NCBI GenBank assembly: GCA_003615045.1
Contig: ML014191.1
Span: forward strand, 1 to 64,000
Source: Caulochytrium protostelioides
Lineage: Eukaryota; Chytridiomycota; Caulochytriomycetes; Caulochytriales; Caulochytriaceae
Direction of reading: 5' to 3'
DNA: 64,000 nt
In this document: positions 12,131-60,051 of the stretch, piece by piece
Layout: every line of letters starts with the position of its first letter
How positions within the stretch are numbered: the first letter of the stretch is position 1
Notes under the pieces: generated by a model
Seen by the model: the letters and a program-made list of their open reading frames with translations, nothing else
What the model was told of the DNA's origin: nothing
Databases searched by the model: none
Position numbers and translations under genes: made by a program

Positions 12131-14648
12131 CTATTGCTGCGCACATCCTTCATCATTATGCGCACTGAGTTGTGGCAGCTTCCCCTGGCGACGCGTCGCC
12201 GACGCTTCGCTCTCACCCAATGGTAATGGTGGTGGTGCAGCTGCTGCCAGTGCTGCTCGCGGTACGGCATCGGCATCGGCATCGGCATCGGCATCGGCAT
12301 CGGCATCGGCATCGGCATCGGCATCGGCATCGGCATCGGCATCGGCATCGGCATCCATCAGCGTAGCGGCATCGTCCGGGACGGGCTCGGCGAGCCCCGC
12401 CGCCGCCAGGCCGCTGGGAGCGTCTACCGGTCGCGAGGGAGATGGCGAGCGGCGGGACGGGGAAGACGGCTTGGCCGCGGCACGGGCCTGGCCGTCGCCA
12501 CGCGTATCGTCATACGGCCCCTCAGGATCGGCACGAGCATCGTCGTGCGTATCGGCATGCGGAGCCGACGACGCCGACGCGTCCACCGCCGCGTCGGCCG
12601 GCTCGGTGGTCCGTGGACGCTTCGGTCCACGGTCCAGCGGGCCGTCGGCATCACGCCGCGAGGGCCGCTCGCGCGTCGCCATCGCCGCAAGGCGCGCCTC
12701 CAGCAGCGCTACCTGCCGCCGGAGCCCGTCCGCGGCGCGCGCACGCTCGTGGCTCTGCTGAAGCGCGTGGCGCAGCTTGTTGGTCTCGTTGAGCTTCACG
12801 AGCTGCAGCGCGTCGATCTGTCGCGACTTGGCACGGCTCTCTTCGCGCAGCTCCCGGATGGTCGTCCGCAGGTAGGCCTGCAGTTGGTCCGGCGCGAGCG
12901 CCGCGGACGCCACCGGCGCCGCGCCGTTGGATGGCGCGGCGGTGGCGCTCGCCACCCTGGGCGACTCAGTGGCCGGTGTTGTCGATGCGGCTGCCGCGGC
13001 GTGGCACAGCTCTTCGATCGTATCGTCCATCGCATGGTCGCGCGCCTCGGCAGCAGCAGTTTCGGCGGCCCGCTTCTGGGCCAGTAACAGCTGCAGCTCG
13101 TGCTTCTCGGCCTCGCACTGCGACAGCGCCTGCTGCAAACTCAGCACGAGATCATCGTCGTCGCCGTCGCCGCCGCCGCCGCCCGTGACGGCACCCATGT
13201 GGCGCAGTCGTGCGATGTAGGCCTTCATGCGCTCGTTCTGGTGGCGCGACTGCAAATGCACCTTCATCAGCCCCCGGTGCCGCTGTTCGATGGCCTTGCG
13301 GCGGCCGTCGACTTCGCCGAGCAGCGACATGGACATGCCGCCGGCCCCCGCGACCGTCTCGTCGTCGGCGCCCTGCGCCGTGAGGACCTGCAGTCGGTTC
13401 TCGAGCTTCTCGGCGATGTCGCGGTAGTGCCGCAGCTCGGTGACCTGCGCCTCGGCGGCGTCCTTGGCGGCGTCGGCGGCGTGCAGGGCGGCCTGCAGCT
13501 CGTCCCAGCGCGCCGCGTCGTGGGCCTGCTGCTGCGCCGCGCGCGCGAGGTCCGCGGCAAGGGCGGCGTTCTCCTCGGTCAGCGCGTCCCGCGCCGTCTG
13601 CAGCGCCGCGGCTTCGATCTCGACGGTCCGCAGCTGCGCCACGACGGCCGCGCTGCCCTGCGCCGCCTCGCGCTGGGCGGCCAGCCGCGCCGCCGCTTCC
13701 CACTGGTCGCGGTCGGCCCACGCGGCGCGCGCCCGCTGCTCGGCCGCCGCAAGGCGGTCCTGCACGGCGGCGCGCTCGCGCCGCAGCGTCTCGGCCTCCT
13801 GCTCGGCCGCCGTCAGGCGCTGCGTCAGCTCGCGCACGCGGTCGCGCAGCCCGCGGCGCTCCTCCTCCCCTCGCGCGGCGGCCTGCTCGTGCTCGCACAG
13901 CTGCGCCTCCAGCCGCGTGATGGCGTGCGCCGCCGCCGCGGCGCGGGCGGCATAGGCGGCCGCGGCCGCGGCGCTCGCGGACGGCGCCTCAGGGCCCGAG
14001 GCGCCGTCGCCGTCACCTTCGCCGCCCGCGTCGCCGTGCTCGCCGCCGCCGTCGCTGCCGCGCTCGGCGGGATGCGCGTCCTCCGCGAGAGGGGGGCGGA
14101 GGCTGCTGCCGGCGCTCTTCGGCAGTCGTGACGGTTTGATCGGCGGCGCGCCGCGACTCGATTGGGCGGTCGCATCCGCGGTCCGCACCGCCGCTTGGGC
14201 GTCTCGCAGCGCCTTGGCGAGCTGGTCGCGCTCGGCTTTCAGCGCATGGAGCTGGGTCGTGAGCTGGCCATGCTGCTCCAGCAGGGACTGGCCGATCTCG
14301 GCCGCCAGCCGCAGGTCTACACCGCCCAGACGGGTGTCCGAGCGCGCGGGGCGTGGAGCAACGACGGCGACGACGCGAAATTTTTCAGGCATACGATCCA
14401 ACGGCGATCACAACAGCCAGATGAGTCTCAGTATCGCATCACCCGCGTCTCACGTCGCGTCGGGCAGCACGTCCCGTCATGCCGCGATGGGTCACGAGCG
14501 AAGCCGCCGCATCGACGGCGCGTCGGCGGACCCCGTGAGGGAAAGACGTCGCGCGGCACCTACTTTCCGAGCGACTGGCGAGCTCGTCTTCGAGCGTGGC
14601 GACTTGGTGGCGCAGCGCCGCGACCGTGTCGGGGTCAGCGTCCGTCAT
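12131..14648 (-). CDS. Spindly-like dynein adaptor, coiled coil with CC1 box
   Basis: Predicted 756 residues from exons 14564-14648 and 12131-14316; intron 14317-14563 (GTAGGT...TAG) is phase 1 and the fused codon keeps the frame. The join creates LASRSENLRLAAEIGQSLLE, a CC1 box with the Ala-Ala-x-x-Gly signature that binds dynein light intermediate chain in BICD, TRAK and Spindly proteins. Near residue 350 is MSMSLLGEVDGRR followed by KAIEQRHRGLMKVHLQ and MKAYIARLRHMG, closely matching the Spindly motif region (SLFAEVEDRR...) that contacts dynactin. Coiled coil dominates from 30 to 570. The tail is acidic, with a PKRPR basic patch and an Asp-Ala repeat. Role inferred: recruiting dynein-dynactin to kinetochores or other cargo. 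Without exon 1 the frame opens with a different, unconvincing N terminus. Confidence 0.68.
12266..12354. repeat. (GGCATC)n hexanucleotide repeat inside CDS
   Basis: About fifteen uninterrupted copies of ggcatc; on the minus strand these encode an Asp-Ala dipeptide run in the tail of the Spindly-like protein. Unit length 6 keeps the frame, so copy number can vary without disrupting the gene. Confidence 0.95.
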
Positions 14649-46107: not shown

Positions 46108-47094
46108 ATGAGCGGCGTCTCGGCCTTCCGCGCTGCCCTCGCGGGCGCGCGCTCCAGCGCCGCGTGGCGCATGCCGTCGGCCGGCATGGCGGCCGCCGCC
46201 GCGGCTTCCAGGAGATACTCGACGCCGGCCGCCGCGCCGTATGCCACGGCGCCGTCGGGCGTCGAGGCGGCGATGGCGCCGCCATGGCCACGCGCGTCCG
46301 GCGCCGCCGGGTCCAGCGAAGCGCCGTCGCGCCTGCTGGTGGGCGCGACGTCGCCCGCGGCGCTGGCGCAGGCGGTGCTGAGCCCCGTGCCTGTGTCGAC
46401 GAAGCCGCTGACGCTGGAGACCCTGCTGGCCGCTGGCGTGCATTTCGGCCACGACGCCGCGCAGCTGCACCCGTATATGATGCCGCACGCGTTCGGCACG
46501 CGCGACGGGATCACGATCCTGCACCTCGAGTCGACGCTGCGCGCGCTGCGCCGCAGCATCGGGCTCGCCCGCGACATCGCCGCCCGCGGCGGCAACGTCC
46601 TCTTCCTCGGCACGCGCATGGGCATCCACTCGGTCACCTACGAGGCCGCGCGCGAGGCCGGCGCGTACTGCATGCTGCACTGGCGCGCGGGCCTGTTCAC
46701 CAACCGTGAGCGCGTCCTGAAGCGGAGTTCCGGGTTCGACCCCAACCGCGTCGTCCAGCTCCAGAAGGCGATCGGCGTCGAGGCCGAGGCCGCCGATGAC
46801 GCCGAGGATGTCGGCGCCCAGATCCATGTCGACCAGCCCTATGTCCACATCCCGGACCTGCTGATTGTGCTCGACATGCCGAACAATATTGAGGCCGTGA
46901 AGGAGGCCAACAAGGCCAACGTCCCGACGATCGCCATCGTCGACTCCAACATGGATCCGCGCTTGGTCCACTACCCGATCCCGGGCAACGACGACAGCGT
47001 CGCCTCGGTCCATCTCATCGCGGGTCTGCTTGCTCGTGCCGTCAAGGAGGGCAAAGCGATCCGCAAGCAGATGTTTGACCTGCCGGCCTCGTAG
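46108..47094 (+). CDS. Mitochondrial small-subunit ribosomal protein uS2m (Mrp4)
   Basis: 328 residues from the ATG at 46108 (MSGVSAFRAALAGARSSAAW), chosen because it begins an Arg/Ala/Ser-rich, acid-free presequence typical for mitochondrial import, ending around the YSTP motif near residue 37. The uS2 core runs from TLETLLAAGVHFGHDA to the end: HPYMMPHAFGTRDGITIL, LFLGTRMGIHSVTYEAA, HWRAGLFTNRERVLK, PDLLIVLDMPNNIEAVKEAN, VPTIAIVDSNMDPRLVHYPI and PGNDDSVASVHLI, all hallmark uS2 blocks (the usual WxxGxLTN is here WRAGLFTN). It joins the head of the mitochondrial 30S-like subunit. The frame is open for 130 codons upstream, with no homology. It is convergent with the XPF gene, with 124 bp between stops. 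Confidence 0.93.
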   Translation: MSGVSAFRAALAGARSSAAWRMPSAGMAAAAAASRRYSTPAAAPYATAPSGVEAAMAPPWPRASGAAGSSEAPSRLLVGATSPAALAQAVLSPVPVSTKPLTLETLLAAGVHFGHDAAQLHPYMMPHAFGTRDGITILHLESTLRALRRSIGLARDIAARGGNVLFLGTRMGIHSVTYEAAREAGAYCMLHWRAGLFTNRERVLKRSSGFDPNRVVQLQKAIGVEAEAADDAEDVGAQIHVDQPYVHIPDLLIVLDMPNNIEAVKEANKANVPTIAIVDSNMDPRLVHYPIPGNDDSVASVHLIAGLLARAVKEGKAIRKQMFDLPAS

Positions 47095-47217
47095 TCAGGG
47101 ATGCGACGTCGGATACGATGCGATGTCGAGCGTCTTTTTCTATGTAATCATGAATGTATCGCATCACCCCCAGCCTAGCGATCGATTGAAAGTGGCACTG
47201 GATGCGTTGGAGGCAAT

Positions 47218-50200
47218 TTAGGGCGCGACGCCGGGTTCGCCCCTGTGCAGGAAGCGGTACAGCGTCTGGGCGCCCGTATCGCCGATGACGCGCGAGAGCT
47301 CCTTCTCCGAGAGATCGGCGAGCGCCGCGATCGAGTGGAACGCATGCGCCGCGTGGCGCGCGGTGCGGGCCGGCATGCCCGGCAGCGTGCGCAGCATATC
47401 CAGCGCGGTCGTGTTGGCCGCCAGCGTTATCCGGTCGGTGGCGGCGGCGCCGGTGGCGCTTTCCCCGCCCGCACGGCCCTCCAGTCCGACCGCAATTGCC
47501 GTCTCCAGATCCGGCTCGGGGCGGTCCATTTTGGCGTCAAGGAAGAGCATGGCGGTCTCGCGCGGTTCGGCGCTCCACATGATGCGCAGCGCGGGAAACG
47601 TGAGCGCGAGCAGACTGAGGCGGGAGCCGAGGTCCTGTCCCGAGATCTCGGTGCCGAGCAGCGTCTGGAGATGGAAACTCCGACCGGACTCGAACTCAAT
47701 CAGCAGCACGGGCGTCGCGTAATGCGCACACATGGCCATCGCCTGAGTATACAGTCGACCGCTCTTGAATGAGCTGATCAGGTCGGGAATCGATTTGCGT
47801 TCGACGCAGATGTTCGGCGTCAGGATGTAGTCGCCCACTTCGAGCGTACAGGGCCGGACGGCCATGCCGTGCTGGTGGATCAGATTCGGCAGGCTCGAGC
47901 GAAATTCGCGGACGTCCACGATCACCTGCCGCGGCACGGCGTTGGCCTTCGATGCCGTCTGCCCGCCGGCCACGCGCGAGCTGACCTGCTTGATGAACGC
48001 GTCGTCGTCCTTCGCCTCGTGCAACCGGCCATCCTGCTGGATGGGGATCGCCATCACGCTCTTTTCATGAATCAGGGTCTCGAACGCTTGCTTCTCGCGA
48101 CGGATACTGCTCAGGTAGACCTGTTCCTCGACCGAGTTGTCGTAGACCATAAAGTAGACATAGACGGGCTGCTCCGGGTGGCGTGCGCTGTAGAGCTCGA
48201 CCTGGCGCACAAACGCCATATCGACATCGTACATAATAATGTACTTGGGCTGCAGGGCTTCCAGCATATCTTCGTCGTCCTCCAGGGGTGGCGCTGCCGC
48301 GGCGCCGCCGGCGCCCGAGACGGATGAAGCGGTCTGAGCATACGGCTTGATGTAGAGCAGGCTGCTGGGATCCATCAGGCCATACGCCGCCATCTCATTG
48401 ATCCCGCGCTCCGACAGCAGCATCGCGTCCAGCTCACTCCACTCGGCGAGATACGCCGGATCGATGGGCGATGCTGGCAGCGCGCTCGCGGCGTGGTCGG
48501 GCGTGTCGGTCGCCGTTGAGCGGTCGCGCGTGTCGGCCGCCAAGGCCGCCGGCCGCTCGTCATCGTCATCGAGGCTCATGACGTTTTTTTCTCGCGAGGA
48601 GCCGCCGTCGTGCTCATTCATAAACTGCGCCATCTCCTCGACTTCGCTCGCGAACGCTGACGGCAGCCCGAATGCGGTCGTGCCGACGAGCGCGGGCTGG
48701 CCGGCAGGTGAGCCGGGACCACTCGGGGGGCGCGTAGCGTGACCAAGGCCGCTGGCGGCGGTCGAGGCACCGCGGACGCGGCGGCGGGAACCGCCGGCCG
48801 GGCTGCCCCGTGCTGCAGGCGAAGCGAAGCGAGAGCCTGACGGCGATCCGGATGAACTGGCCGACGCGCCCGTAGAGGCGGCGGCGCTACCGTCTGGACC
48901 CGCGGTCGGAGGCCGCATGAGCTGCCCCGCCGCGCCCCGAGGCAGGTGGCCTTTCCACGCAAAGTAGTTCTCGAGCAGGTTTTCCATCAGTCGTCGCGCA
49001 CCAGGGGAACAGAAACGCCGTTCCTTCTCATGGTCATCGTGAGCGTCGTCGTGAGCGTCGTCTGCGCCTGACACTTTGCGCTTTCGCGAGGATCTGGACC
49101 GCCCTGGTTCCGGTTTAATGACGGTAAGGTCGAAGCCGGCGAGTAAGCGTCGGAGCTGGCCGCAGGTGCGCTCCCCGGCACACATAACGAGCACGAGGCC
49201 ATCGCCTGCAGCCGGATGCGGCGGGTCGACGTCCGCATCAACATCGATCGCTTCCGCCCTTGCGCCATGCGGCGTCATGCGCTGCGGCTCGATCTCGCCT
49301 TGCAGGATTTGGAGAAGTACTCGCCACTTGGGTTGCTCTTCCAACACGGGCTGGATCGTTGGCGGAAAGCGAGGGGGCGCCGACGCTGACGGGGGCCGCT
49401 TGGCCATTCGTCGGGTAAAGACGCGAGCGCGCGCACGCTCAAACAACACCTGGGCGGCATCGTAAAGCAGCCACGGGCTCTTGCCGGCGTCTGAGGAACG
49501 CAGACTGTCCCCATGGGCGCCGACAGCGTTCGCCATAATCATTGTCTCCAGCAGGCAATGCATCGTGACAGCATCGTAGGCTAGCAGATGCGCAAGCAGC
49601 GAGCGCAATGTCGTGATGTCCTGCAGCAGCTGCCGCGTCCGCGGCCCTGTCTTGTGCCACAACGGCGCGATCATTGCACGAATGCGCAGATCGAAGGCGG
49701 GGAAGAGCGCGTGCTCGATGCTGATCTGATCCAGGTCCAGCAGCGCCCCCGCACGCGTGGCGCCCTTTTTGAGGTCGCTGATGCACGTCTCGATACACGC
49801 GAGTAGCGCGTCCTGCATGGCCCGCATTGCGGGCGACAATGGCACGCGGATCTCGACCAGGTGCGTACGGCCCGCCTGGCTGAGTGTCTGCGCCACGTCG
49901 GTATGAAACCGCGGCCACAGGAACACGCGGCGCAAGAAGAGGGTTTTCATACTACGCTCGAGCTTCCAGTAGCCGTGGGTGAACCCGTCGGCGACGTCAC
50001 TGAACGCTTTAATAAAGCCCGTCTTGTTGGTGTCGCGGTACAGCCGGAGGATAAAAGCTTCGGTGCTGGATCGGTCAGTGACGCGGTGCGCATTCAGCAC
50101 CATCATGCCCGTGATGGCCGCCGTGGGCACGACCGCATTGAGCAGATCGACAACCAGAATCCGCGATGTGACGGCGATGACACCGCCCTCGCGATACATG

Positions 50201-50688
50201 GCATGGCGCTCGGACGCCGGCGTGTCAGCCGTCATCAATCGGAACCAAGGCGTGCTGTCTTCCGATGCGAAGTCGTCCGACCGAGGCTCGACCGCCGCCA
50301 CGCCATCGCGGGCCGAATCGACCCTTACGAGAGCGTCCCGCTCGGCACGCGCCTGCTGTGCCGCATCAGCATCGACGCCATCCGCCGACGGGTCAGGTCG
50401 GGCACCACGTGCGATCGCGGCCACGGTGCGCTGCAAGCTTTCATACTCGCGCGCCGAGAGCCCGAGCACGAGCACCAGATGCCGGGGGTCGGCATAGAGC
50501 GCGATGAGGGTCGGGATGACGCTGGCGCGGAGGCCGAGACCCTGCGCGGTGATGAGGAGGCCGTCGCCCGCGTCGGCGGCGAGCATGCGCGTCGCACGAC
50601 GCTCAGCTGCGGCGGCGGGATCGGGCGGCGTCTCGGCCAGCAGTTCGGCGATCATGGCCTTGTGGAAGGCCAGCAGCGGGACCACCAT
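47218..50688 (-). CDS. XPF/Rad1/ERCC4 structure-specific endonuclease
   Basis: 1156 residues from the ATG at 50688 (MVVPLLAFHKAMIAELL), the usual start context of XPF. The N-terminal inactivated SF2-helicase-like part includes DGLLITAQGLGLRASVIPTL, GVIAVTSRILVVDLL and MMVLNAHRVTDRSSTEAFIL then LYRDTNKTGFIKAFSD. The ERCC4 nuclease near 940-1000 carries LEVGDYILTPNICVERKSI then PDLISSFKSGRLY, the GDxnERKx3D active site, followed by LLIEFESGRSF. A tandem helix-hairpin-helix ends the protein (LRTLPGMPARTARHAAHAF, LSEKELSRVIG). With its ERCC1/Rad10 partner it cuts 5' of lesions in nucleotide excision repair and single-strand annealing. Ser/Gly/Asp-rich inserts lie near 600-720. Yeast Rad1 is 1100 residues, so length fits. 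Confidence 0.95.
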   Translation of the reverse strand: MVVPLLAFHKAMIAELLAETPPDPAAAAERRATRMLAADAGDGLLITAQGLGLRASVIPTLIALYADPRHLVLVLGLSAREYESLQRTVAAIARGARPDPSADGVDADAAQQARAERDALVRVDSARDGVAAVEPRSDDFASEDSTPWFRLMTADTPASERHAMYREGGVIAVTSRILVVDLLNAVVPTAAITGMMVLNAHRVTDRSSTEAFILRLYRDTNKTGFIKAFSDVADGFTHGYWKLERSMKTLFLRRVFLWPRFHTDVAQTLSQAGRTHLVEIRVPLSPAMRAMQDALLACIETCISDLKKGATRAGALLDLDQISIEHALFPAFDLRIRAMIAPLWHKTGPRTRQLLQDITTLRSLLAHLLAYDAVTMHCLLETMIMANAVGAHGDSLRSSDAGKSPWLLYDAAQVLFERARARVFTRRMAKRPPSASAPPRFPPTIQPVLEEQPKWRVLLQILQGEIEPQRMTPHGARAEAIDVDADVDPPHPAAGDGLVLVMCAGERTCGQLRRLLAGFDLTVIKPEPGRSRSSRKRKVSGADDAHDDAHDDHEKERRFCSPGARRLMENLLENYFAWKGHLPRGAAGQLMRPPTAGPDGSAAASTGASASSSGSPSGSRFASPAARGSPAGGSRRRVRGASTAASGLGHATRPPSGPGSPAGQPALVGTTAFGLPSAFASEVEEMAQFMNEHDGGSSREKNVMSLDDDDERPAALAADTRDRSTATDTPDHAASALPASPIDPAYLAEWSELDAMLLSERGINEMAAYGLMDPSSLLYIKPYAQTASSVSGAGGAAAAPPLEDDEDMLEALQPKYIIMYDVDMAFVRQVELYSARHPEQPVYVYFMVYDNSVEEQVYLSSIRREKQAFETLIHEKSVMAIPIQQDGRLHEAKDDDAFIKQVSSRVAGGQTASKANAVPRQVIVDVREFRSSLPNLIHQHGMAVRPCTLEVGDYILTPNICVERKSIPDLISSFKSGRLYTQAMAMCAHYATPVLLIEFESGRSFHLQTLLGTEISGQDLGSRLSLLALTFPALRIMWSAEPRETAMLFLDAKMDRPEPDLETAIAVGLEGRAGGESATGAAATDRITLAANTTALDMLRTLPGMPARTARHAAHAFHSIAALADLSEKELSRVIGDTGAQTLYRFLHRGEPGVAP

Positions 50689-51360
50689 CGTGGCCGGCAA
50701 CCACGTCGGCGAAGGCGGGTGACTTGGGAACTGGGAAGAAACGACGCGATGGGTGCGACGTGGCGTCAGATGCACCCCGAGCGGCGCACCGGCACGAGCG
50801 GATCAGGGTCTTGGGGAGGCGTGTGGTGGTGGGCCGCAACTCAGCACACGCTGCCGAGGGGCACTTCATGACTCATGACTCAGCGAGCGCCAGCCGGTCA
50901 TGCCATCTCGAGGGGCCCATGAGCCATGGGAGGCCGTGGTCACCCGGGCGGGGACCCTTGGAAGGCGCGCTCAGGCGGAGATGGATGGACATGGGTCTTG
51001 GCGCTCTCGGGGTGGCGGCACGACGCCCGCGGCATCGAGGCGAGGCGATCCCGGCTTCGCCGGTGCGTGCCCACGCCACACGTCCAGCGCGCACCGGCGT
51101 CACGCGATCGTCCTCGCAGCAACCGCACGCGTCGCCCGCGTTCCTGGTGGGCCGCTGGGCGAGATCGCCTCCCACGGGCTCTGACCCGCCATTCACGCCC
51201 GATGCGATCACACGTGACGAACATCGAGACTTACCCTTGATACCGAACACCGGGGTCCTTCTGCCAACGCACGCGGCTCGCGTCACGGAGGCGGAAAGGA
51301 TGGGAGAACGAAGGTCGTGACACGAGACGGAGAACGAAAAAAGGAACGAAAAAAACGGAA
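50689..51360. other. Intergenic 5' of XPF
   Basis: No supportable gene. GC-rich in the left half with an A-rich run near 51335-51355. Contains the XPF promoter side. Confidence 0.45.
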
Positions 51361-51443: not shown

Positions 51444-51667
51444 GGGGGCATCACGGACCGTTCTCTGCCTATCGCCCGGTTCATCCAGCTAAGCCACTTC
51501 CCGACCCGCTATCCGACGACCCGTCGGTGATGCCACGCGTCCAACGCGGACGAGTCAGGCCTCAAAAGTGAGCTCGCCCATCAAGACTGACCGATGCGCG
51601 AACAAGAACGAGGCCGTCGATGGCTTGAGCACCGATGGTTGACCCACATGGTGCGCTTATCTGTCCT

Positions 51668-53440
51668 CAGCGGCCTCCAGCCGCGATCGATCTGGTTGGC
51701 ATACGCTGCTCCTGTGCGAAGTCGAACGTGGCCACGCATGGCTTACCCGGAGAGCGTCGTATGTGGTGTCCGGCATGCCGCGATCTTCCAGCTCATGCCG
51801 TGGATGTCTCGGCAGAACGCTGTCTCTGTTCGAAGCAGGTGATGCCGCCCTTTGGCTTCGAAAATGATCCGCAATTGCCGGCACCATGCCGGCATGGTGC
51901 CGACTCTGTCCTGGAAAATCGAAGGATGCTATCAATGCGCGGCGTCTCCAGTGCCCGTGCGACAAGAAAAGACATCCTATGTATAGCCTTCCGGGCGATC
52001 AGGCACGGTGGTGCACTCACTGCCCTGAGCGTCCACCCGAGGCCAAGGACCGGTATGCGCGTGTGTGCGAATGCGGCCGTCGAAGAATTCCCGTCTTTGG
52101 TTTGGAAGGCGAAAAAGCGCAATGGCGCACGCTCTGTCCTGGCAAGGACCCTGCTGCCGTCATCATCCACGCTCGGCGATGTGAGTGCGACCGGGGTGTT
52201 CAGCCCGTCCTTGGTTGCGACGGACTGAAGCCACGGTGGTGTGTCGCTTGCCCAGGTAAGCCGGAAGGAGCCATCAAGGTGTACGCCGCACAGTGTATGT
52301 GTGAACGCAAGGTGCAACCCACGCAGAGGGCATCGAGGGCGAACGCTCGAAGTGGTGCATCCAGTGCCCCGACAAGCCTCCTGAGGCGATCGCCGTCTAT
52401 GCACCCAAGTGTGAGTGTGAGCGCGATGTTTGTCCAACCTTCGGGCTCAAGAGCGACCGACCGCGGTGGTGCAAAGACCATCCAGGCAAAGACCCCAAGG
52501 CCATAAGTCTAACCACGGTTCGGTGCGAGTGCCCCAAACAGGTGCATGTCACCTTTGGGATGCCTGGTGAGCGGGCGCGGTGGTGTGCCCAGTGTCCCGG
52601 ACGACTTCCCGGATCGTACATCACGATGGCGGCTCGATGCCAATGCGAGCGATCCGTCCAACCCTTGTATGGTTTCCCCGAAGATCCGCGCCCCCGCTGG
52701 TGCTCCGAGTGCAAGCCAGACGGTGCGGTCGACATCAAGTCCATGCGATGTGATTGTGAGAGGCATCAACGAGTTTCGTACGGCTACCCAGGGCAACGGC
52801 TTCGTTGGTGCGCCCAATACCCCGATCGCCCTGCAGACTCGATCAACGTCTACCGCAACATGTGCCAATGTGATCCGCCGCACAGAGCTTCCTTTGGGTG
52901 CCCAGGCCAGCGTCCTCGCTGGTGCTTGCGGTGCCCCGACCGGCCGGCCGATACGGTGAACCACAGGGCTCCGACATGTGAGTGTGAGCGCCGAGTGGTT
53001 CCCAGCTTCGGCTTCATTGGCGAGCGCCGGCGCCGGTGTGCCTACTGTCCGACGCGACCCGCATCGGCGGCGGACACGAACAGTGCTCGTTGCCAATGCT
53101 CGCGTCGTGCCCATGCCACTTACGCCGCCGGCTGTGGTGCAGCCAATGCCCGACCCGGCCGGCCGACGCAGTGGATATCACCAACCTATCGTGTGCTGGT
53201 CCCAGGAAATCGGTGGCCACATACGGTCGTCCGGGCGATCCTCCCGAATGGTGCATCCACTGTCCCGATAAGCCAGCAGATTTCGTCAACGTCAGAGCGG
53301 CGCTGTGCGCCTGCGAACGACAGGTGCAGGCCCTCTGGGGCCACCCGGGTCAACGGCCACGCTGGTGTGCCCAGTGCCCCGATCGCACCGACGATGCCGT
53401 CAACCTGCGCGCTAAGCCGTGCCTGACCGAGGACTGTGTT
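51668..53440 (+). repeat. Tandem ~114-bp Cys-repeat array
   Basis: Fifteen to sixteen coding repeats of 37-39 codons. Typical units begin CECERDVCPTFGLKSDRPRW then CKDHPGK, or CECPKQVHVTFGMPGERARW then CAQCPGR. Nearly every unit has Cys 1 and 3, Phe/Tyr-Gly at 11-12, Arg-Trp-Cys at 19-21, Cys (once His) at 24 and Ala-Ile/Val at 31-32. Single Cys losses occur (WR near 52125, AQY near 52810). The period matches the EsV-1-7 motif (C-x4-C-x16-C-x2-H-x12, also 38), which suggests a zinc-binding fold. Confidence 0.85.
51880..51901. repeat. Perfect 22-bp palindrome at a frameshift
   Basis: ggcaccatgcc followed directly by its reverse complement ggcatggtgcc. It overlaps an 11-bp direct duplication (tgccggcacca / tgccggcatgg) that explains the frame change here; slippage at a hairpin is a likely cause. 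Confidence 0.9.
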
Positions 53441-54168
53441 GCTCGCAGCCAATTCAACTGGGAGGGGTACTGCATAGCCTGCTTAGCCGCTTGCGCAAGT
53501 ACCCTTGCCGTCGCACGGCCCCAAACTGGCGCACCAAAGAGCTGGCCGTGGCTGCCGAGCTGACGACGTACTTGGCGCAGTATCACCCGCACGTCCTAGT
53601 GCTCGCTGACACGAGGGTGCCCGGGACGCGTCTGCGGCCTGACCTGCTGCTCCAGTGGACGGGCGACTCTGGGCATGTCCATGTCATTGTCGAAGTGGAC
53701 GAGTATATGCATACGTCAGCGCAGTACGTGGGTTGCGAGCACCCTCGCATGCGAGCGCTCGTAAAAGCACTTGGTCGAGTCGCTTTTGTGCGGTTCAACC
53801 CGGATGCCTACATGCAACTGCTGCCGCACCGGGCGCCCGTCCCTGGCTGCTGGGTCACGCAGCACCGCACCAGTGAAGTGGTCGTCCGGGACCCCGCCGC
53901 ATGGCAAGCTGGCCTGGACCACCTCGTGGAGGTTGCGGACGTTCTGATCCTGAATGAGCCGATCGAGTCGTTCTCGGTGCAGTATCTCTTCTATGGCGAA
54001 AACGCGGACCGCATGGAGTAGAGGTGGACGTCTCTCCAATGCTTTATTTCATTTACAAATCACAATTTATTCCACTCGCATCGCAAGGGGTGATGTCCGT
54101 GCAGCTCGATCCTGGTGACCCAAGGCCTGACCTAGTATGCGTGCGTGCCCGAGTCGCCGCCATGAGCC

Positions 54169-57100
54169 TTAGCGCTTTCCGGTGCCACGCATCCAGACAA
54201 AGACAAAGATCATCATGGCCGAGAAGACGGTGAAGACCCAGAGATAGCCGAAGCGGGACCAGGTGTTGCCCGAGTTCCAGCCGAACTGCTTGAGGTACTC
54301 GTCACCCGTGCGGTACTGGCAGTAGCCGCAGTTGCCGTCCGAGAGCGTCTCGACGTAGCCGGCGCCGCCAGAGCTAAAGAAGGGCTGGAAGTAAGCGTCG
54401 CACGACTGGCCGGTCGGCGGCTGCACAGGCACCAGCTTGGCCGTCTCACAGTACACTTCTTGCCCGCCAAACTCGCGGGGAATAATGGCCTGCACGGCCT
54501 GGGACAGCGGGTTGGCGTACCAGACGATGCGGAAGGGCCAGACAATGCTGGGCCCGCGGACGAGCACACCGTTGCACAGGTTGAGCAGCGACATGATGAG
54601 CGGGTTAATGATCGTGGCGACAATGAGGTTGGGCGCCAGAGCAGCAATCATGATGCCAAGGAAGACGGACGAGAGGAAGTAGACGCAGAGGGTGATAAAG
54701 AAGAAGCCCGCGTGCGACGTCGCCGGGTTGAGACGGACCGGGTAGTAGAGGAGCAAGAAAAAGGGCACGACACAGATGAGCGTGTACGGAATTTCGACCA
54801 ACACCGTCGACATGGCGAAGGTAACCCATGAGTAGAAACCGGACGTGCTCTCGCGGTAGAAGAGGGCACGGCGCTGAAAGAAGACGGGTTGACCCAGATT
54901 GACGAGCAGAATGGCCATCGTGATGGCAAAGAAGAGCGCATACACCTTGATCTGGATGTCACCGACACTCTGGTTGGTGTTGAGATACATGGTCCCAAAA
55001 AGGAACCCCGTGACCGTAAAGAGCAGCAGGCGGCCAAGCGTGTACGACGTGTTGCGGTAATAAGACAGCATGTCGCGCTTCAGCATGAGCGGCAACTGAC
55101 GGCGGAAGGGCAGCGAAAAGTCGCGTGGCCGTTCGGTCGTATTTGTGGTGGTCGTCCCATCGGGCCGGGCCGCGCTGGCGCCGGCATCCGCCACAATCGT
55201 CTCGATGTCGCGCTGAATGGCCTGTCGCTCGGGCGATTCGGCCCACACGCGACCCCAGTCCGTCGATGAACCGCGGCCCATCCCGGCGCCAATCACATCG
55301 AGCGTCCACTCGGCAGGGTTGGCGTCCGGATCGATGGGCGTCGCTCCGTTGCGCTCAAAGTAGTCAATCATGGTCTTGGAGCGCGGGCCCAGGTCGCCAA
55401 AGTAGGCGACACGGCCGCCGCGGCCGTCGCCCGTGTTGACGAGCACACACAGCATATCAAAGTGCTCAAAGAGCACCGCAGACGGCTGGTGGATCGTACA
55501 CAGAATGGACTGGCCCGAGTCGGCGAGTTTGCGGATGAGGCGAATAATGGCGAACGAGGACTGCGAGTCGAGGCCCGACGTCGGCTCGTCGAGAAAGAGA
55601 ATGGAGGGACGGGCCACAAGCTCAACACCGATGGTCAGCCGCTTGCGCTCCTCGACCGAAATGCCGATGCCCGTCTCGAGCGAGCCCACAACGGCTTCGG
55701 CAATATCCTGCATCTCGAGAATCTCGAGCACCGTCTCGACAAACGCATACTTTTCGGCCTTCGAGACGGTGGCCTCCTGGCGCATCTCGGCCGAGAAGCG
55801 CAGCACCTCGCGGACCGTCAGCAGCGGCGGGTGCACGTCCAGCTGCTCGCAGTAGCCGGACGTGCGCTTAAAGTCGGACCGCTGCGGCTGCGCGCCAATC
55901 ATAATGTCGCCGTCAATCTTGCCGGTCGTCTTGCGGCGCGAAATGCAGTCCAGCAAGGTCGACTTGCCGGCACCGGAAGCGCCAACGAGCGCGACCATCT
56001 TGCCCGGCACGGCATACCCCTCGATATCCGAGAGCAGCTGGAGCTTGCCGTCCTGCACCGAGTAGTCAATGTGCTTCCAGGTCATGGGCAGCGCCCGGGT
56101 GCCGAGCTGGGCGCCGATCGCGCCCGAGGCGGGGGCGGGGGAGTGGGGACCCGTCGCCGTGCCGCCCGCGGCCGCCTTGGTCTCCGGCGAGGACCGCGCC
56201 ATGGCATTTAAGGCGACATCATCAGCCTTGTCTACGACCGCCGTAATGGGCACCGAGCGGAATGCCAGATCCCCCTCGCCGACCAGAGAGCCGGTGCTCG
56301 CCGCCTCGGCTTCCACGCCCGTCTTGCGGGCGGCATGCGACTCCGAATGGCGCCAGCGGCGGAGGCGCAAAAAACCTGTGCGGCGGAGCTGGCGAGCCAC
56401 ATGGCCCGCAGGCAGCTTGTACGCGCGCGTCGCGAACCCGCCTTTGCCAAACTCGATACGGTCCACGAGGAGGACAGCGACCGTGAGGAACAACACTGTG
56501 AACCCAATCACGGCGCCGATGCACCACCAGATGTCGCTCGGGCGGTACCCGAGCTGCGCGTAGAGGTAGTCGGCGCCGGCAATCGACGTGACGCCCGGGC
56601 CGCCGCCGAACGAAGCGCACGCGCGGTTGGCGAGTGGCACATTAGCATACGCGGGACCCGACGGAATGAGCTGCGGCTCGATGCACTCGAGCCGGAGGCC
56701 ATTGAACTGGTTGGCATAGATGGCGCGGAAACCATAGGCGATGGGGTTGATCCAGTAGATCCAGACGTACCAGCCGGGGAGTTGCTGAAGCGTCAAAAGG
56801 AAACCCGTGGTTGAGATCAAAAGCAAGAGGCTTATCGAGTTCAGAACGTTAGCAACGTCCACGTCCGGGAGGACCACGGAGAGGAGCTTGACGAAGCCCA
56901 GGTAGGACTGGGAGGTGACCATGATGGCGAACCAGAGAATAAAGAACCCACCCGGGCTGCCGTTGCTCAGATCGGAGAGAAAGTAGACAATGATGGTAAA
57001 GAGCGTAATGACGAACGTCTTGGACGGCAGATCGCCGAGGATGCTGGCGAGGTACTGCGCACTGGGCTTCGCGAGCCCGAGCCGCTTCTGCTTGAGGAGC

Positions 57101-59073
57101 ACCTCGCGGCCCTCAAAGAGCCCCGGAATTTCGGCCTGCGCCGAGAGGACGTTGGACAGGAGCAAAAAGAAGAGGATGCCGCCATAGTTGAACGCGTCGA
57201 GCGTGTTTTGGTTCTGCTGCAGAAACACGATGCCGATGCACAGCGCAATGAGAATGGAAAAGATGGACTGGAAAATAATCTTGCCCGGGTTGCCCGATTG
57301 GAGCTGGAACTCGCGCTTCAAGGCGGCGCGGCACTGCTGCCCGTAGGTGGCGGAGTACGGCGAGTGCTGCGCCGTAATGTTGTGCGTCTGGTCGCGAATC
57401 GCCTTCGCTTCGCGGAATGCTTCCTGCTGCTGCTCCTCGGCCATCTGGGCGTCGAGCTCGGCCTGCTCGGCGCGGTTCCGCTGGAATTGTTCGCTGGCGC
57501 GGAACGCGTCCGCAAAGCCCTGGGGCGTCATGGGCACGCGGTCCTCGAAGCCGCGGCGAACGATGCGCTCGCCGTACTCGGTGATGCCCGTGAGAAAGTC
57601 GGCCGTCGTCTTGCGCGGCGGGCACACGAACCCCAGGTCTTCAAAGTAGGCCTTGGCGCGGTTCGCCGGGCCCGAATAGATCATGCGGCCGCACGACAGC
57701 ACAATCACGCGGTCGTAGAGGTCATAGATGGCCTCGCTCACCTGGTAGAAGGAGCACACGTTGATCGTCTTGAACGCCAGGCACGCGATCTTGAGCGCCT
57801 TGACGTACTCGAGCGAGGACGACGCGTCCAAGCCACGCGTGCTGCCGTCCCACAGGTTCACGATGCCGCCACAGCAGAGGGTCTCGGCGATGGACAGGCG
57901 TTTCTTTTCACCGCCACTGATCCCGCGAAGCATCGCGTCGCCGACGGGCGTATCGGCACAGCGGTTCAGGCCGAGTAGCGAGAGAATGACGGCCAAGGCG
58001 CGCTCGCGCTTCTCCTTAAGCGCACTCCCGGGCATGCGGCACTTCAACGTGTACTGGAGGGTCTGCCGCACCGTGAGGGTCGGGTAGTGGATATCGTTCT
58101 CCTCGTTGTAGTTCACCAGGCCTTTGTCGGCCTTGACAAAGGTGTCCATGTCGACGCCGTTGATGAGGCGGGTGCCGGTGACGGCCGTGTAGTTGCGGAC
58201 GAGGTTGCCCATCGTGCGGAGGAAAGTCGAGCAACCGGACCCGGGCCGGCCCAGCACGAGCACGAGCTCGCCGGCTTTCATGACGCCCTCCATGTCGTGG
58301 AGAATGGGCTTCTCCTCGGCCTTGCCCTTGGAGTGCTTGTACGCGGCAAAGAGGGGGGCCAAAAAGAAGGTGCCTAGGTTGTCAATGTACGACAGCCCCA
58401 CGGCGTCGCCCTTGACATTGACGCCCTTCCAGCTCAGGCCGGCTTCGAGGAAGGTTTCGCCGTGCTCGGCAATGAACTTTTCGCGCGTATTGTCCATCCA
58501 CCGAGCAAAGTCGAAGTGCTTGCTGAGCGGGTCGAAGGCCTCGACATCGGGCACGGCGGGCGGCGGGCCTTCGAGGCCCTTGGCCTCGTCATCGGCGACG
58601 CGGCTCGAGCGACTCGAGCGGCTGCCGAGCGACTTGGTCCGCTTCAACAGGGTCGTCATCAACCCGTGCGGTGCAGCCGTCGGCTCGCTTGCGGCCGGCA
58701 TGGGGACACCCTCCTCGGCGCGCTGCTGCTCCGCCAGCTCGCGGGCCTGACTCTCGAACCGCTCCGCCGTCACGAGGTCCGCGACGCTCAGCCCGCGGCT
58801 GCGCGACGAGCGCGCCGATTTGACGGACGAGGGGCGGCGGCTCGACGCCGGGGGCTGCGAGGACGCTGAGGCATGATGGCTGTGGTGCGGCGCGAGGCCG
58901 GTGAGGCCGGCGGTCGGGACAGTGCTCGTGGTCGGGACAGTGCCCAAGGCGGCGCCCACGCCGGCGCTCGCGCCACCTGCGGTCGACTGTTCGTTCACGG
59001 CAGTCGAGGCCGTGGCCGCCGGATAGTGCGCGGGCGGGTGGGCGCTGCCCTCCTGGGGCTGGGCCGGATCCAT
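54169..59073 (-). CDS. PDR-type (ABCG full-length) drug-efflux transporter
   Basis: 1634 residues from the ATG at 59073 (MDPAQPQEGSAHPP); the frame is open upstream to 59295. The order is NBD1-TMD1-NBD2-TMD2, the reverse topology of the Pdr5/Cdr1 family. NBD1 has the fungal-type degenerate Walker A GRPGSGCSTFLRTM near residue 276 (Cys in place of Lys) with a canonical signature ISGGEKKRLSIAE. NBD2 has a canonical Walker A VGASGAGKSTLLDC near 1033 and Walker B ILFLDEPTSGLDS near 1161, but a degenerate signature ISVEERKRLTIGVEL. TMD1 spans roughly 570-880 and TMD2 1325-1630, each with six hydrophobic segments; FLLLSNVLSAQAEIPGLFEG and LPGWYVWIYWINPIAYGFRA are typical. It exports hydrophobic compounds at the plasma membrane. 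The first 70 residues are Ala/Ser-rich. The C terminus is MRGTGKR. Confidence 0.96.
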   Translation of the reverse strand: MDPAQPQEGSAHPPAHYPAATASTAVNEQSTAGGASAGVGAALGTVPTTSTVPTAGLTGLAPHHSHHASASSQPPASSRRPSSVKSARSSRSRGLSVADLVTAERFESQARELAEQQRAEEGVPMPAASEPTAAPHGLMTTLLKRTKSLGSRSSRSSRVADDEAKGLEGPPPAVPDVEAFDPLSKHFDFARWMDNTREKFIAEHGETFLEAGLSWKGVNVKGDAVGLSYIDNLGTFFLAPLFAAYKHSKGKAEEKPILHDMEGVMKAGELVLVLGRPGSGCSTFLRTMGNLVRNYTAVTGTRLINGVDMDTFVKADKGLVNYNEENDIHYPTLTVRQTLQYTLKCRMPGSALKEKRERALAVILSLLGLNRCADTPVGDAMLRGISGGEKKRLSIAETLCCGGIVNLWDGSTRGLDASSSLEYVKALKIACLAFKTINVCSFYQVSEAIYDLYDRVIVLSCGRMIYSGPANRAKAYFEDLGFVCPPRKTTADFLTGITEYGERIVRRGFEDRVPMTPQGFADAFRASEQFQRNRAEQAELDAQMAEEQQQEAFREAKAIRDQTHNITAQHSPYSATYGQQCRAALKREFQLQSGNPGKIIFQSIFSILIALCIGIVFLQQNQNTLDAFNYGGILFFLLLSNVLSAQAEIPGLFEGREVLLKQKRLGLAKPSAQYLASILGDLPSKTFVITLFTIIVYFLSDLSNGSPGGFFILWFAIMVTSQSYLGFVKLLSVVLPDVDVANVLNSISLLLLISTTGFLLTLQQLPGWYVWIYWINPIAYGFRAIYANQFNGLRLECIEPQLIPSGPAYANVPLANRACASFGGGPGVTSIAGADYLYAQLGYRPSDIWWCIGAVIGFTVLFLTVAVLLVDRIEFGKGGFATRAYKLPAGHVARQLRRTGFLRLRRWRHSESHAARKTGVEAEAASTGSLVGEGDLAFRSVPITAVVDKADDVALNAMARSSPETKAAAGGTATGPHSPAPASGAIGAQLGTRALPMTWKHIDYSVQDGKLQLLSDIEGYAVPGKMVALVGASGAGKSTLLDCISRRKTTGKIDGDIMIGAQPQRSDFKRTSGYCEQLDVHPPLLTVREVLRFSAEMRQEATVSKAEKYAFVETVLEILEMQDIAEAVVGSLETGIGISVEERKRLTIGVELVARPSILFLDEPTSGLDSQSSFAIIRLIRKLADSGQSILCTIHQPSAVLFEHFDMLCVLVNTGDGRGGRVAYFGDLGPRSKTMIDYFERNGATPIDPDANPAEWTLDVIGAGMGRGSSTDWGRVWAESPERQAIQRDIETIVADAGASAARPDGTTTTNTTERPRDFSLPFRRQLPLMLKRDMLSYYRNTSYTLGRLLLFTVTGFLFGTMYLNTNQSVGDIQIKVYALFFAITMAILLVNLGQPVFFQRRALFYRESTSGFYSWVTFAMSTVLVEIPYTLICVVPFFLLLYYPVRLNPATSHAGFFFITLCVYFLSSVFLGIMIAALAPNLIVATIINPLIMSLLNLCNGVLVRGPSIVWPFRIVWYANPLSQAVQAIIPREFGGQEVYCETAKLVPVQPPTGQSCDAYFQPFFSSGGAGYVETLSDGNCGYCQYRTGDEYLKQFGWNSGNTWSRFGYLWVFTVFSAMMIFVFVWMRGTGKR

Positions 59074-60051
59074 CCTGCGCCAATCAGACGAGGGGTTGAC
59101 GACGATGGACGTGCTGGGAAAAAACGCGTCGATGATGCAGAAAAATGGGGAGCAGCCAACGGGAGCTACCCGAGAGACGGGGTGGGGGTGTCGGGGCACA
59201 CACCGTCGCGACCACAGATCGTGAGGCGGGAGTTCGACAACCACAAGTGAAAACCTCGTGTGCCTCGTGTGTGCGGGGTCAGCGTCAAGGAACAAGCTGG
59301 GATATCAAGGCCGCGATCGAGATCTACCGACACGACGAGAGGTCACCGATAATCATACACAAAACGATTATGTGAGTCGACAGGTTGCCGGTCAAACCTT
59401 CTTGAGCGGTGGCGATGCGCACCGTCATTATCACGATCGTCGTCGCGGCATGCGCTGCGGCCGTCATGCTCCGCACCACCCCGTTGTCCCATGAGCGCCA
59501 TGTCACACCCACCCCCTGTTCGTCTTTGGGGGTTGTGACGAGATCGGCGGCCACCCTGTGATGGCGGTGATATGGTAGCGAAAGGGCCTTCCAACACGCC
59601 TGAGCAGGCGAGGAAAAATCTCAAATCTCAACGGGGGGGAGCGTTGGGGTTGGGGGGCGGTCGGCCGGCCGGAGGCGCGACGGGGAGTCCCTGCGCGCCA
59701 GCCTCCGCGATTTTCTCTCGCCTGAGCTGCGCGGTATGTGAGTCGCGGGCGAGTCACGAGAGTTCCGGCATCAAGCGCCGCTGGTTGCGCGATCGGCCGA
59801 GGTATACCGTCGCCAGGATGCGGGAAGGCGCCACTTACTTTTCACTGTTCTACGAGCTGGGGAGGTGCGGTTCGGAAGAAGGGTCGTGGCGTGCACAGCT
59901 ACCACAGGATCGACACGTGGGGCTCCAACAGAACGCCTTCGGTGGTCCGAGACGAGGGGATCAACCAGAAATGTCTTTCCACACTTGGGTGAATGCCATG
60001 ACCCACCGGAGTCGTCGGCACGCAGCGAAAGGGCCACACGCGCGCTGGGTC

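Follow-up and report, generated by a model that had tools for sequence, protein, structure and literature searches.

The locus and the question it raises

What does a tandem array of EsV-1-7-type cysteine repeats, joined to a nuclease-type module, represent in the genome of a fungus? The question is posed by a locus at 51662–54021 (plus strand) of a window comprising the first 64,000 nucleotides of contig ML014191.1 from Caulochytrium protostelioides (assembly GCA_003615045.1; 20.9 Mb, 337 contigs). An initial annotation, made from the sequence alone, had described a new architecture here: about sixteen 38-residue repeats fused to a PD-(D/E)XK-like nuclease in a chytrid-like fungus. It overlooked the frame changes of the locus, its pseudogene state and its membership in a set of about 21 relic loci. 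Our main reading, to which we give roughly even odds (probability about 0.5), is that the locus preserves the dead copy of a gene whose product was a nuclease guided by its repeat array.

A degenerate EsV-1-7 repeat array precedes a nuclease-type module

A profile scan of six-frame open reading frames (ORFs) detected 15 repeat units plus one partial unit on the plus strand (51662–53416), mostly spaced 114 nt or 38 codons apart, in agreement with the annotated repeat number and length. Some of the window's own units had gone into the scan profile, and the curated Pfam profile PF19114 (EsV_1_7_cys) served as the independent check. It matched the piece at 52305–53426 with 54 bits (E = 1.4e-14; cut-off 25), three stretches of which individually exceeded the cut-off, bearing out the EsV-1-7 assignment. 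The other four of the five locus pieces scanned had no PF19114 match, and in a six-frame search of the whole genome one stretch at this locus passed the cut-off, with 29.3 bits. First-pair cysteines are kept in 14 of 14 aligned window units (a unit near 53.19 kb, which lacks one of them, was left out of that alignment), while the second-pair motif W-C-x-x-C retains its tryptophan in 14/15 and its first cysteine in 14/15. The array runs through frame classes 2, 1, 0 and 2, and the module lies in class 1, amounting to at least four frame changes; three units are themselves split, near 51.85, 52.31 and 53.11 kb. The parts of the locus, in order, are:

51662..51820, plus strand: the partial unit followed by the first complete one, both in frame class 2 (profile scan)
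51821..51942, plus strand: unit split by a frame change (profile scan)
51952..52290, plus strand: three units, frame class 1 (48–52 bits each)
52294..52409, plus strand: unit broken by a frame change, where the database protein P0008 reads the matching stretch in one frame
52410..53090, plus strand: six units, frame class 0, holding the best PF19114 stretch
53091..53185, plus strand: unit split by a frame change
53204..53416, plus strand: last two units, frame class 2; the penultimate one starts a few codons upstream and has lost one first-pair cysteine
53417..53472, plus strand: linker carrying the C..C and GYC..C motif that intact relatives also have; a further frame change falls about here
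53473..54021, plus strand: PD-(D/E)XK / EDxHD-like nuclease module with a stop codon at its end (by homology; fold from the relative P0017)

The module proper spans 53473–54012, with the stop at 54021, and the RPD, VEVDE and RFNPD motifs that had been noticed downstream of the array all lie inside the open piece 53416–54018. It is homologous to six proteins (P0001–P0006; E ≤ 1e-3 among 308 candidates); Pfam returned no family over the module piece, and NCBIfam no match above cut-off. R-P-D and E-x-D-E-x-x-H are invariant in 18 of 18 aligned rows, the window included, and the acidic catalytic residues of the PD-(D/E)XK superfamily thus appear to be in place. The best Protein Data Bank (PDB) matches of the predicted structure of P0017 include many nucleases of this superfamily, and a structure search with the same model pointed to a resemblance to a homing endonuclease. 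A PD-(D/E)XK-type fold, as initially proposed, is therefore predicted for the module from this one relative. Sequence searches found no similarity between the module and either the EDxHD homing endonuclease I-Bth0305I or the Vsr repair endonuclease.

The window copy is a pseudogene

Among 1454 candidates, the repeat piece had five matches, the top two being P0007 and P0008 from Caulochytrium protostelioides (Chytridiomycota); the fungal host had thus been placed correctly. The C. protostelioides genome records named in the accessible text of PMC6784888 stem from strain ATCC 52028, to which both proteins presumably belong. P0008 represents the same locus as the window copy, because its end translates the antisense of the same ABC transporter gene. 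The top match to this protein in the genome of the window reaches only 83% identity, so the window derives from a diverged isolate or haplotype.

The window copy is dead. Against its nearest paralogue, L029 (86.6% identity over 848 nt), differences fall on the three codon positions at 20/221, 25/220 and 17/220, without an excess at third bases, and nine of the ten gaps have lengths that are not multiples of three; substitution at the locus is neutral. Could the gene nonetheless be functional, its frames connected by introns or programmed frameshifts? Its orthologs P0007 and P0008 are annotated as proteins in the database, and the window module retains positions that are invariant among relatives. 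We nevertheless consider a live gene very improbable: frame changes sit within repeat units, one of them private to the window copy, since P0008 reads that unit in a single frame; codon third positions show no surplus of differences; and, compared with P0007/P0008, right-frame stretches (67% over 100 aa, 77% over 48 aa, 59% in the module with a long gap) are kept no better than wrong-frame ones (70–85%). The two ortholog models themselves look spurious, as both mix wrong frames and P0008 runs partly antisense to the ABC transporter gene. Assembly errors as the source of the frame breaks might be suspected in a GC-rich genome (G+C around the locus is 0.61–0.65), but this is scarcely credible given the open frames of both adjoining genes (1194 and 1711 codons), the breaks at other loci of the family and the neutral substitution.

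Relic loci are dispersed through the genome

Searches of the fungus's own genome located the module at 13 places and the repeats at 23, which merged into 21 loci on 19 contigs; a single weak module piece on contig C209 (L026) was left out of this count, and a second copy on C91 (incomplete in L027; L039) lay outside the analysis. The window and L029 make up subfamily A. Most other loci fall into subfamily B, with mutual DNA matches of up to ~950 nt and roughly 66–87% identity among the matches listed. Fourteen of the 19 further loci tabulated are broken into two or more ORF pieces, and the other five are partial single pieces; in L031, the repeat part and the bulk of the module share one frame, but the E-x-D-E motif is altered. 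The copies examined in this fungus are relics. Their dispersal is compatible with homing into a specific site, though no proof of it. Enrichment near subtelomeres was considered and rejected (21 loci; mean scaled distance to contig ends 0.47; Kolmogorov–Smirnov p = 0.96).

Many relics lie near a second degenerate dispersed repeat (L032 1958–3237, L024 8610–9811, L029 5565–6286, L022 629–1295 and others), whose conceptual translation contains RGLLWC..., NRDLNAALNIRRC. Its position and orientation vary between loci, and it was treated as separate rather than as part of one element with the gene. A likeness to the end of TnpB/Fanzor proteins was not confirmed and is not claimed: two pieces of the repeat matched no Pfam family, PDB searches gave no TnpB/Fanzor match, the genome's one PF07282 match is below cut-off and located elsewhere, and we found no literature linking Fanzor with Caulochytrium. 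In addition, L024 3213–4249 and L027 6231–7255, which lie on two contigs, are 86% identical over 1057 nt, and their shared ORF looks like a small cellular gene.

Intact relatives are common in environmental sequences

The claim of a new architecture did not hold. A profile based on P0002 and its relatives matched 5604 of 8000 scored candidates at E ≤ 1e-3; of the 120 matches listed, 119 carry PF19114; this profile covered repeats and module together, so that the repeats favour PF19114-bearing matches. Members of the family occur commonly in environmental contigs, which reach 170 kb. Like the window locus, these proteins (P0002, P0005, P0012–P0128; no family name was found for them) present the array, the C..C / GYC..C linker and the module in the same order. 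They differ in having open frames and, in the 61 relatives analyzed below, 3–8 detected units (minimum asked, 3), whereas the window copy has 15–16 and is dead. Scans of viral and prokaryote genomes found no relatives.

Some proteins depart from this layout. P0006 is the exception without EsV-1-7 repeats, as C2H2 zinc fingers precede the same module; P0110 (550 aa) has an HMG box ahead of the EsV-1-7 array and module. P0006 is an environmental protein of 340 aa from a 1.8-kb contig, whose last residues look like an adaptor artefact. P0010 (381 aa) combines an EsV-1-7 array with PF03457, with no module seen.

The locus shares Cys-repeat units in tandem arrays with the established EsV-1-7 family (PF19114; Ectocarpus virus EsV-1-7 and Ectocarpus IMM). 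It differs in that the array is joined to a nuclease-type module, in a fungus, and in its first pair, which is CxC at the locus and CxxC in many environmental relatives. The accessible text of EsV-1-7 accounts, including PMC12993054, mentions no nuclease and gives no molecular function.

In a module tree of 36 rows (27 of 54 environmental modules, P0001–P0004, P0006, the window and three subfamily B pieces), the three fungal pieces group in a starred clade, and the window sequence sits on an unplaced branch of over four changes per column.

Three residues per unit are hypervariable within arrays

For each column of the repeat, we compared two mismatch values, one among the units of a single array and the other between proteins. 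The sample comprised 61 relatives less than 75% identical, taken from the 120 listed matches plus six earlier ones (126 proteins entered, 121 sequences gave units) and over-represents one part of the family; the window's units, below the inclusion limit, are not among the 61. Within-array/between-protein ratios were highest at columns 8 (0.99; 0.93–1.03), 35 (0.93; 0.88–0.98) and 10 (0.91; 0.86–0.96). Column 34 was at 0.84, and the remaining columns with a between-protein mismatch of at least 0.7 ranged from 0.29 to 0.73; some less variable columns, namely 9, 32 and 37, gave 0.82–0.88. Both half-sets (31 and 30 proteins; columns with a between-protein mismatch of at least 0.6) returned the same top three. 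In 88 unit pairs differing at 1–6 columns, columns 8, 10 and 35 took 32% of the differences, against 8% if these were spread evenly (pairs weighted equally). Across 21 independent protein pairs whose modules are 90% identical on average, arrays differed at 24% and modules at 10%, the leading columns being 10, 23, 35 and 8. P0033 and P0042 exemplify natural close relatives with differences at many of the residues 8, 10 and 35.

An argument from coupling between columns was examined and set aside: column 35 covaried with column 8 of the next unit (0 of 300 shuffles reached the observed value), but so did columns 23 and 24 (0/300) and 34 and 35 (1/300) with one another. Covariation between columns 8 and 35 within one unit was weaker (3/300), and the 8–10 column pair showed none (31/300). 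Neighbour tests of 8–8 and 10–10 were not used, their null being flawed by self-pairs.

In the relatives, R, Q, I or H predominate at column 8 and S, N, H or D at column 35; the fungal B relics have mostly Q, R or C at column 8, and S, N, H or T at column 35. The window's units carry Q (four), H (three), V (three), R (two) and single I, M and C at column 8, and mostly A at column 35. A small number of residues per unit that vary within an array, against an otherwise homogenised background, thus characterizes the 61 intact relatives, while columns 8, 10 and 35 do not stand out in the window's own array.

What the gene may have encoded

Taken together, the tandem units, their few hypervariable residues, the nucleic-acid-binding domains that replace or stand beside the array and the homing-type nuclease suggest that the array reads a target and aims a nuclease. 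Each repeat would form a small metal-binding unit, judging by its cysteine pattern; residues 8, 10 and 35 of each unit would contact the target; and the array would position the PD-(D/E)XK/EDxHD-type domain on DNA, which the domain would then cut. A selfish gene of the homing type, which may have proliferated in this fungus before dying out, is suggested by three features: the dispersal of the copies, a predicted fold like that of homing endonucleases, and the decay seen in the copies examined. Both DNA reading and selfishness are, in our view, suggested rather than established.

Arrays of transcription activator-like effectors (TALEs) and zinc fingers, as in TALE nucleases (TALENs) and zinc-finger nucleases (ZFNs), repeat a unit of almost constant length in tandem, are hypervariable at a few residues per unit and are fused to a nuclease domain. 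EsV-1-7 arrays have these features in common with them; the EsV-1-7 unit is Cys-rich and of other sequence, and its target-reading code is putative. A wider generalization, which we put forward tentatively and hold to be rather unlikely, is that EsV-1-7 arrays are natural modular sequence readers. Each Cys unit of 36–38 residues would read part of a DNA (or RNA) target via residues 8, 10 and 35, with the array aiming a homing-type nuclease; this natural TALEN-like selfish family, distributed widely among environmental genomes (probably those of protists or large viruses), would once have invaded a chytrid and left ~20 relics. If true, it would represent a novel type of repeat code that comes with a natural nuclease of its own, and the link of a homing-type nuclease with hypervariable residues makes the modular target-reading array a direct and testable proposal.

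Might the array instead bind proteins, in the manner of ankyrin or leucine-rich repeats? Its hypervariable residues would then track protein partners, and the nuclease would degrade what the partner brings, such as RNA or DNA of a host or rival in the course of an infection. Repeats that bind proteins, too, typically have hypervariable positions on their surface. IMM, which contains the same repeats, controls development in the brown alga Ectocarpus, whose virus has these repeats as well; the accessible text of PMC12993054 on IMM states no molecular target. Set against this are the nucleic-acid-binding domains that replace or precede the array in P0006 and P0110 and the resemblance of the module to a homing endonuclease, and we regard protein binding as unlikely.

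A separate question, raised by the initial annotation's suggestion of a transfer from an algal-type large virus or its host, is whether the fungal copies are remnants of integrated large-virus DNA, the gene being virus cargo and its only part still recognizable. Large DNA viruses carry such proteins, and the abundance of the family in long environmental contigs fits this origin. The accessible text of PMC10640383 reports a fungus with a viral region of 1.5 Mb and cites genes for viral DNA polymerases in basal fungi. Yet both genes flanking the locus are cellular, the compared loci have this gene and one other repeat in common, and the module tree leaves the window sequence unplaced. Nor did the genome match capsid or VLTF3 families (PF04451, PF04947, PF16903), a weak argument given that the control genomes had no match either. 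Five viral-contig scans found no relative, and we found no literature on C. protostelioides with a giant virus. A viral origin is thus possible but doubtful. The relics indicate that genes of this kind increased in number in a chytrid before they died, a finding relevant to gene flow among protists, large DNA viruses and early fungi.

Neighbouring genes and other features of the window

The locus, which we read as a dead copy of an array-guided nuclease gene, lies between two open genes:

47218..50802, minus strand: ERCC4-domain (XPF-like) gene
54169..59304, minus strand: PDR/CDR-type ABC transporter gene, into which the P0008 model extends

Beside the end of the ERCC4-domain gene, window positions 46741–47193 are 77% identical to L026 9298–9748 on another contig. 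Further upstream, positions 12265–12355 hold a perfect CGGCAT hexamer array of 15.2 copies.
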